NCBI GenBank assembly: GCA_028714475.1
Contig: JAQTNC010000004.1
Location: 31,584 to 83,938, forward strand
DNA: 52,355 bases
Source: Patescibacteria group bacterium
GTDB taxonomy: Bacteria; Patescibacteriota; Patescibacteriia; SG8-24
Direction: 5' to 3'
Of the stretch, positions 16,087 to 31,555 are shown one piece after another; the stretch's first letter is position 1; each line of letters starts with the position of its first letter. Under the pieces are notes generated by a model that did not search any database, was not told the DNA's origin, and worked only from the letters and a program-made list of their open reading frames with translations. The translations under genes were made by a program, and so were the position numbers.

Positions 16087-16088
16087 AC

Positions 16089-16125
16089 AAAACGACCCCA
16101 CCACGTGGTGGGGTCGTTTTGTTGG
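16089..16125 (+). terminator. Long terminator hairpin directly after tRNA-Glu
   Basis: AACAAAACGACCCCACCAC/GTGGTGGGGTCGTTTTGTT perfect inverted repeat. Confidence 0.75.
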
Positions 16126-16132
16126 TCGGGTA

Positions 16133-16270
16133 CCCGTAGGGGAATCGAACGGGTCGTAAGCGAGCAAGGCGCGGCGTCGACCGCGCCGAAGCGAGCGCGA
16201 GCCCCGCGAGCCGGCGAGCGGGGCCGACGACCCCGGACAAGCCCCGACGTATTCGACGTCGGGGCGCGAC
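16133..16270. repeat. Three-hairpin unit A with inverted tRNA-Glu terminal fusion
   Basis: CCCGTAGGGGAATCGAACGGG plus hairpins 16168-16187, 16201-16224, 16242-16264. Confidence 0.75.
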
Positions 16271-30398: not shown

Positions 30399-30440
30399 CA
30401 AACTAATCGTTTGAAAATAAAATCTAATACGCAACACCAT

Positions 30441-30516
30441 TCCCGCGAAAGCGGGAATCCAGAAGCCAAAAATAGCACATAATTTCTGGATCCCCCCGCA
30501 GTACTGCGGGGGGATG
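30441..30516. repeat. ATTCCC-N8-GGGAAT hairpin repeat and an inverted relative with a different stem
   Basis: CCATTCCCGCGAAAGCGGGAATCCAGAA followed by TTCTGGATCCCCCCGCAGTACTGCGGGGGGATGG. Confidence 0.75.
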
Positions 30517-30540
30517 GTAAACAAGGGCACCGTTGATTAT

Positions 30541-30984: not shown

Positions 30985-31005
30985 GGGCGTGTGTGGCCGC
31001 GCCAC

Positions 31006-31338
31006 GCGTATCCCAGCGTTTATCTAGTGGAGGCCCCGTAAAGAAGATTGCTCCGCAATCTTCCACGGGGCACGTAAAAATCCCAGACGAGCTGGGATTT
31101 TTACGTGGCCGCGCCACGTGAAGCCCGTGCGGAGCGAAGTCCCGTAAAGCCGCCTTCGCCTATCGGCATCAGGCGGCCACGGGACACGTAAAAAGCCCGT
31201 GACTGTGCACGGGCTTTTTACGTGGCTGCGCCACGTGGACACCGGCGTTCGTTTTGGGAAAGTCCCGTAAAGGAATCCTGCTTCGCAGGATTCCCACGGG
31301 ACACGTAAAGACACCGGACGAGCCGGTGTCTTTACGTG
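31006..31338 (-). repeat. Tandem array of about three double-hairpin units next to tRNA-Arg
   Basis: CACGTAAA-x-x'-TTTACGTG hairpins at 31073-31109, 31195-31224, 31302-31338 alternating with CCCGTAAA..CACGGG hairpins. Confidence 0.8.
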
Positions 31339-31411
31339 GTGCGGGCAGAGGGAATCGAACCCCCATCACTGGTTCCGAAGACCAGCACTCTATCCGTTGA
31401 GCTATGCCCGC
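31337..31411 (-). tRNA. tRNA-Arg (anticodon UCG), CCA encoded
   Basis: GCGGGCA/TGCCCGC acceptor, CTTCGGA anticodon loop, GGGGGTTCGATTCCCTC T-arm. Confidence 0.92.
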
Positions 31412-31555
31412 GTGATTTTCTGGATTCCGGCCTTCGCCGGAACGACGGCCATTGCCCCTCGACAGGCTCGGGGCAGAACACGCTTTTGATACAACAGCGG
31501 CGGGACTGTCGCCCCGCCGCCTCAAATTATCAGTTTCGTTGGCGTCGCGCAACCG

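Follow-up and report, generated by a model that had tools for sequence, protein, structure and literature searches.

The window, which is the whole stretch of 52,355 nucleotides analysed from a Patescibacteria genome (G000), contained a minus-strand tRNA-Arg(TCG) gene (31337..31411), whose encoded CCA (31339-31337) anchors a tandem array and supplies the first three bases of its left arm. The array was made of three minus-strand units of the ~112-117 bp type, all following one plan: CGTAAA-x-loop-x'-TTTACGTG, then YCCCGTGG-y-loop-y'-TTTACGGGR, then a short spacer, x'' and CACGTGGC-GCR-GCCA, with the next unit following the final CCA. The motif of the unit is CACGTAAA/TTTACGTG, and its inverted-repeat ends read CCACGTAAA-x on the left and x''-TTCACGTGG on the right, the core x being variable yet complementary. 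Unit 1 (31223..31336) begins directly after the tRNA CCA and has its own CCA at its end; it comprises a terminator-like x/x' hairpin (31302..31338, CACGTAAAGACACCGG-CTCGT-CCGGTGTCTTTACGTG), a y/y' hairpin (31263..31301, TCCCGTGG...TTTACGGGA), x'' as right terminal inverted repeat (31238..31246, GCCGGTGTC) and a tail (31223..31237, CACGTGGC-GCA-GCCA) that remakes the CCA site used by unit 2. The same order could be found in unit 2 (31106..31222), with the x/x' hairpin at 31185..31224 (core AAGCCCGTG), y/y' at 31140..31184, x'' at 31121..31130 (GCACGGGCTT) and the tail at 31106..31120 (CACGTGGC-GCG-GCCA), and in unit 3 (30994..31105), with x/x' at 31071..31107 (core AATCCCAG), y/y' at 31034..31070, x'' at 31010..31017 (GCTGGGAT) and the tail at 30994..31009 (ACGCGTGGC-GCG-GCCA).

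The original prediction of three tandem units with co-varying x, x' and x'' next to tRNA-Arg could be read directly on the minus strand, and the sequences it gave for these arms were correct. Its unit tail, (C)ACGTGGC, was recovered in units 1 and 2 but not in unit 3, whose tail is ACGCGTGGC. Since each unit closes in its own CCA, another unit can follow, and the array ends at 30994 instead of the predicted 31006. Against shuffled sequences, the fold of the three-unit array as RNA gave a z of -15.2 and that of unit 3 as DNA a z of -8.1, and in a comparison of the array with Rfam only the tRNA family reached its gathering score. The window also contained, at 30440-30520 and 31420-31460, palindromes of other kinds that end in GGAATCCAGAA or GGATCCAGAA and have no relation to the units.

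Altogether 75 units were parsed, in which x'' adjoins the CACGTGG tail and corresponds to the tRNA-proximal arm in reverse complement, indicating that x:x'' could act as a terminal inverted repeat. In the 24 units of G000, x-to-x'' complementarity was 7.7, compared with a mean of 3.6 and a maximum of 5.5 when x'' was re-paired 2000 times among units; the corresponding values were 6.7 vs 3.2 for the 12 distinct left arms of this genome, 8.0 vs 3.0 for all 75 units and 8.2 vs 2.9 for 37 distinct arms, with 0/2000 re-pairings as good in each comparison. The arms thus vary together, as predicted, and the source of the co-variation could be either templated copying or selection on pairing. That x might pair with one right arm or the other, as proposed, also held, x:x'' being formed in 69 of the 75 units once x' was blocked in silico. 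Fourteen units (e.g., L185, L187, and L244) had at most one mismatch in 7 for x:x'' and at least two mismatches in 9 for x:x', and in L163 x'' matches both the stem and the loop. To some degree the two right arms thus vary on their own. That x'' merely duplicates x' was ruled out, because x'' complements the tRNA-proximal arm even where x' is broken and matches the loop side in L163. Target-site duplication of x' through insertion of a y module was rejected as well, since it would give x' = x'' once and not co-variation across divergent copies.

The x:x' hairpin, with its A-tract, GC stem and T-tract, resembles the core of an intrinsic terminator. The claim that the stems are "not random terminators" held in that the arms co-vary, but as a denial of terminators it was half right, the x:x' core being terminator-like. 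Several versions of the unit departed from the usual form. The arm order was swapped in L346, L347, L350, and L352, and the simplest copies, L358 and L361, had a single hairpin, with one arm serving as both x' and x''. These versions indicate that the common feature is a CCA-anchored element with terminal inverted repeats, the third arm being an addition present in the usual form. In the L351 lineage the universal part was also changed on both sides (CCAGGT...ACCTGG). The x'' of L051 (minus strand), L184, and L209 did not match its own x, so that strict x:x'' pairing is not always kept.

The array is not peculiar to the tRNA-Arg/tsaE region and proved to be one site of a dispersed family located at the CCA of tRNA and tmRNA genes. 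Within the 1.41 Mb assembly of G000 (43 contigs), a DNA search returned 42 matches, and the x-hairpin pattern CACGTAAAN{8,38}TTTACGTG occurred at 27 places (0 for the reversed control), 25 of which carried CCCG within ten bases after the hairpin. With CGAAAA variants added, 30 x hairpins were classified by position, and all 30 were at a CCA end, none elsewhere in the genome: 17 directly followed a tRNA detected by ARAGORN, 7 another tRNA 3' end or a duplicate of one, 1 the tmRNA and 5 the CCA that closes the unit before. Many of the 46-47 tRNA genes in the genome have ordinary terminators; the unit is therefore frequent without being obligatory. A single-genome assembly artefact was ruled out, since the unit recurs at numerous loci and in assemblies unrelated to this one.

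A second type of insertion at tRNA 3' ends was observed behind tRNA-Glu at 16087-16250 of the window (plus strand) and also in L056, L065, L092, L253, and L259, consisting of a plain terminator, an inverted copy of the T-arm of the tRNA itself (GGGGAATCGAAC) and then GGGTCGTAAGCGAG...CGACCCCGGACAAG. At one tRNA-Lys locus (L053, ~2011-2520), the tRNA gene, a unit, an insertion of this second type, a copy of the tRNA-Lys 3' end and an identical unit lay in series, the unit and the tRNA 3' end having been duplicated as one block. Behind the intact unit of L051 (plus strand), L054, L060, and L064 were older units that had lost the left arm alone and had in its place a short stretch resembling ATTTTGATAC/TTTCGGATCC; x', y, and x'' were still present in most of them. 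Chimeric units could be found in L184 and L209. Tandem copies, the duplicated block, the older units without a left arm and the chimeras show continuing turnover. In L144 and L148 (G002) and at the tRNA-Gly of L133 (G000), an x or plain terminator hairpin reached into the tRNA, with a 3' arm whose end is complementary to the 3' strand of the tRNA acceptor (e.g., ACCGCACCA...TGGTGCGGT). One genome (JAGOQX; L184, L208, L209, and L223) had a palindrome, GTCGGTCGCGACCGAC, nested within the CACGTG...CGTGGC tail, and a similar nested palindrome was present in G352 (L311).

Beyond the source genome, the same unit architecture was found at several tRNAs of G002, a member of the same family, with a genome-specific y flank (CCACGTGG...TTTACGTGG) and tail (CACGTGGCAGGCCA). 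The pattern CCACGTAAAAAN{6,30}TTTTTACGTG retrieved 98 stretches from all GTDB species genomes. The majority came from Patescibacteria, Candidatus Uhrbacteria among them, and within this group most stretches had y and x'' along with a tRNA or tRNA-like end. No viral contig matched the unit pattern. A stricter pattern, which misses the unit variants L351, L354, L355, and L357, was present in 17 of the 381 genomes of the class, in six families, with a patchy distribution that included positive and negative species inside one genus.

Orthologous loci with stems lacking the matching third arm had been named as evidence against the original prediction. What was found instead is that the pilT-tRNA-Arg(TCG) neighbourhood, recognisable in seven genomes (G003-G009), lacked the entire element and had ordinary sequence or a plain terminator behind the tRNA, which points to insertion. 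Within one genus, the tRNA-Val(CAC) of G199 carried a unit and that of G352, with the same downstream gene, an ordinary terminator. When G199, G333, and G352 were compared for an exact empty site, the neighbouring genes aligned but the intergenic DNA did not, being too diverged to define one. In L057, L169, L192, L196, and L246, a terminator-like hairpin was left behind the final CCA of the unit. Insertion is the simplest reading of this presence and absence at orthologous tRNAs, at the level of both family and genus.

Reading of the flanks revealed open reading frames starting MYYVYLL...WYIG just behind many units, which belong to a clade of stand-alone GIY-YIG nucleases of 85-93 aa made of the catalytic domain alone. 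A profile of ten of these nucleases was run against all six-frame open reading frames of the fetched sequence, which came to 1.47 Mb with overlapping loci counted. All 13 intact strong clade members (E below 1e-33) were preceded by a unit, with the start 7-90 nt behind the unit tail in loci where the tail motif was matched, and the weaker, other GIY-YIG genes in these loci were not placed behind units. Because the fetched loci had been selected around units, a class-wide search of 381 genomes is the fairer test of linkage. There, the best 21 loci (110.9 bits or more), from ~13 families, all had a CCA-anchored inverted-repeat element directly upstream (21/21), and 20 of these 21 lay behind a recognisable tRNA or tmRNA 3' end; the next nine loci read had element debris at most (L363), or nothing. 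The simplest copies (L358 and L361), which lack the third arm, indicate that three arms are unnecessary for the nuclease linkage. At L346, a unit and a nuclease gene occurred without a recognisable tRNA or tmRNA upstream (TACAATACAGACA followed by CCACGTAAAGG), possibly an off-target copy.

Genomes usually contained one gene of this clade and occasionally two. The single gene of G000 (C4:5061-5315, outside the window) was behind a unit at a tRNA end; this tRNA was missed by ARAGORN, and a group I intron match was observed just upstream of the same tRNA end (L052, 5570-5820, minus strand). In about half of the element-bearing genomes defined by the strict pattern (G002, G249, G212, and others), no clade nuclease was found, which could reflect loss, assembly gaps or a different mobiliser. 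In the nuclease tree, which rests on 83 columns and has many weakly supported forks, the linked proteins clustered (2 label changes vs a shuffled mean of 14.9), with L358/L361 outside the linked group.

PF01541 was matched by 12/12 clade members (56.6 bits for the first member, against a cut-off of 22.6), and Y5, Y16, G18, R26, H30, and E62 were invariant in alignment A1, the catalytic Glu presumably being the one indicated by analogy to SLX1. The structure model (pLDDT 89) had UPF0213 and SLX1 as its nearest structures, with E values of 7e-4 to UPF0213 and 8e-3 to 4e-2 to the SLX1 family. SLX1 proteins are branched-DNA nucleases, and by this likeness a structure-guided nuclease is plausible. 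No nuclease relatives were found in viral contigs or phages, and with no unit match in viral contigs either, a viral or phage origin was rejected.

Given the position and architecture of the units, the co-variation of their arms, their nuclease linkage and their patchy distribution, the array is probably best described as three copies of a nuclease-linked mobile palindromic element specific for tRNA/tmRNA CCA ends. We infer from sequence that the element is mobile, that its nuclease is active and what role x:x'' plays. The x:x' hairpin is predicted to serve as transcription terminator of the tRNA, so that an element lying between the tRNA and its own terminator would be harmless. Pairing of x with x'' could convert the element to a hairpin or cruciform with its branch point at the tRNA CCA, on which the small nuclease, as its UPF0213/SLX1-like fold suggests, might act by recognising the folded structure rather than a fixed sequence; a nuclease that reads structure would explain why complementarity is kept and sequence is not. 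Cutting and repair would then copy elements to other CCA ends, maintaining a population of many copies without open reading frames and one nuclease gene, as in REPIN/RAYT systems.

It is conceivable, though unlikely, that the units instead constitute a cis-acting RNA device, in which the trailer of the tRNA adopts the terminator fold (x:x') or the alternative one (x:x'') to govern 3' processing or read-through to the gene downstream, and which spread by recombination between tRNA genes. Such a device would be consistent with the retention of both pairings and the intrinsic-terminator composition of the x core, as well as with the location of the nuclease gene on the tRNA strand behind the terminator, where read-through could express it. 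Nevertheless, with the usual arm order transcription reaches x' before x'', so that x'' cannot stop termination at x' and has no antiterminator role there; an attenuator-type switch of the tRNA transcript was rejected on this ground. The swapped arm order of L346, L347, L350, and L352 and the one right arm of the simplest copies also speak against an RNA device, as do the many tRNAs of the same genome that use ordinary terminators and the orthologous tRNAs without the element.

Less probable again is that the GIY-YIG gene is a homing-type passenger settling behind tRNA/tmRNA terminators, with the palindromes spreading by gene conversion between tRNA 3' ends. The several element-rich genomes without the nuclease clade would fit this scenario, the chimeric units and overwritten left arms point to gene conversion, and G278 has a related nuclease behind tRNA-Cys with no element; yet an element lies between the tRNA/tmRNA and the nuclease in 21/21 of the best loci although element-free tRNA ends are far commoner, and the remaining small GIY-YIG genes of these data are placed differently. 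Template-switch correction of quasi-palindromes is known in bacteria, and the arm match could in principle result from such correction of imperfect inverted repeats at replication, leaving x'' functionless. The lower frequency in G000 of perfect matches to x for x'', relative to x', would agree with it, but this origin is very improbable, because the 14 units that keep x:x'' better than the much closer x:x' (L185, L187, and L244 among them) and the match of x'' to loop as well as stem in L163 are the opposite of what distance-dependent correction predicts, and tRNA targeting and the nuclease would be left unexplained.

The proposed mobile palindromic element shares with REPIN/RAYT systems its short palindromic non-autonomous repeats in tens per genome (~30 in G000), its extragenic copies with a genome-specific consensus, and a nuclease gene adjacent to a copy, with one or occasionally two such genes in each genome. 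However, the partner of the palindrome here is a GIY-YIG nuclease, the copies are confined to tRNA/tmRNA CCA ends, and the palindrome core varies among copies, each with a terminator-like hairpin. Y1_Tnp (PF01797), the defining partner of REPIN/RAYT, had 0 matches in the 43 contigs of G000 with positive controls, and a Y1 transposase was discarded as the partner. The nearest published relatives found are the intron-less GIY-YIG insertion sequences contained in CPR rRNA genes, whose proteins are described as sparse and outside spread by homing, in a paper that mentions neither tRNA nor hairpins (PMC11270868) and describes no repeat population for them. These insertions and GIY-YIG homing endonuclease genes have the PF01541 domain and stable RNA gene targets in common with our element, in the same radiation, whereas the element is behind, not inside, tRNA/tmRNA genes and forms a structured population without open reading frames at one site class across many tRNAs.

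Integrative elements with tyrosine integrases likewise target tRNA/tmRNA 3' ends, and tRNA 3'-end direct repeats occur at some of the loci here. In contrast to them, the unit of ~112-117 bp has no integrase gene, shares the CCA alone with its target and starts exactly after it, with no long tRNA 3' segment rebuilt. The x:x' hairpin with its A-tract, GC stem and T-tract directly behind the tRNA is like an intrinsic (Rho-independent) tRNA terminator, but the homologous flanks at many tRNAs, the co-varying second right arm, the y hairpin, the tandem copies and the nuclease linkage are different.

A search of open-licence papers turned up no account of palindromes that follow Patescibacteria tRNA genes, nor of GIY-YIG genes located behind tRNA/tmRNA genes. 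We tentatively raise the possibility, which we hold as less than even, of a new class of bacterial mobile DNA, in which a GIY-YIG nuclease recognises the folded element and copies it behind tRNA/tmRNA CCA ends, the element bringing a terminator, which makes insertion neutral, and a CCA, which allows stacking. The matched but freely varying arms offer a clean test of structure- versus sequence-guided DNA mobility, for which nature already provides mutants in the many arm combinations, chimeras and swapped orders. If this proposal is true, GIY-YIG enzymes would join the short list of enzymes maintaining bacterial palindromic repeat populations, and the repetitive tRNA 3' flanks in these bacteria would be accounted for. 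The terminator carried along would make landing at tRNA/tmRNA 3' ends harmless, giving selfish DNA a safe and always available place to settle in bacteria with some of the smallest genomes.
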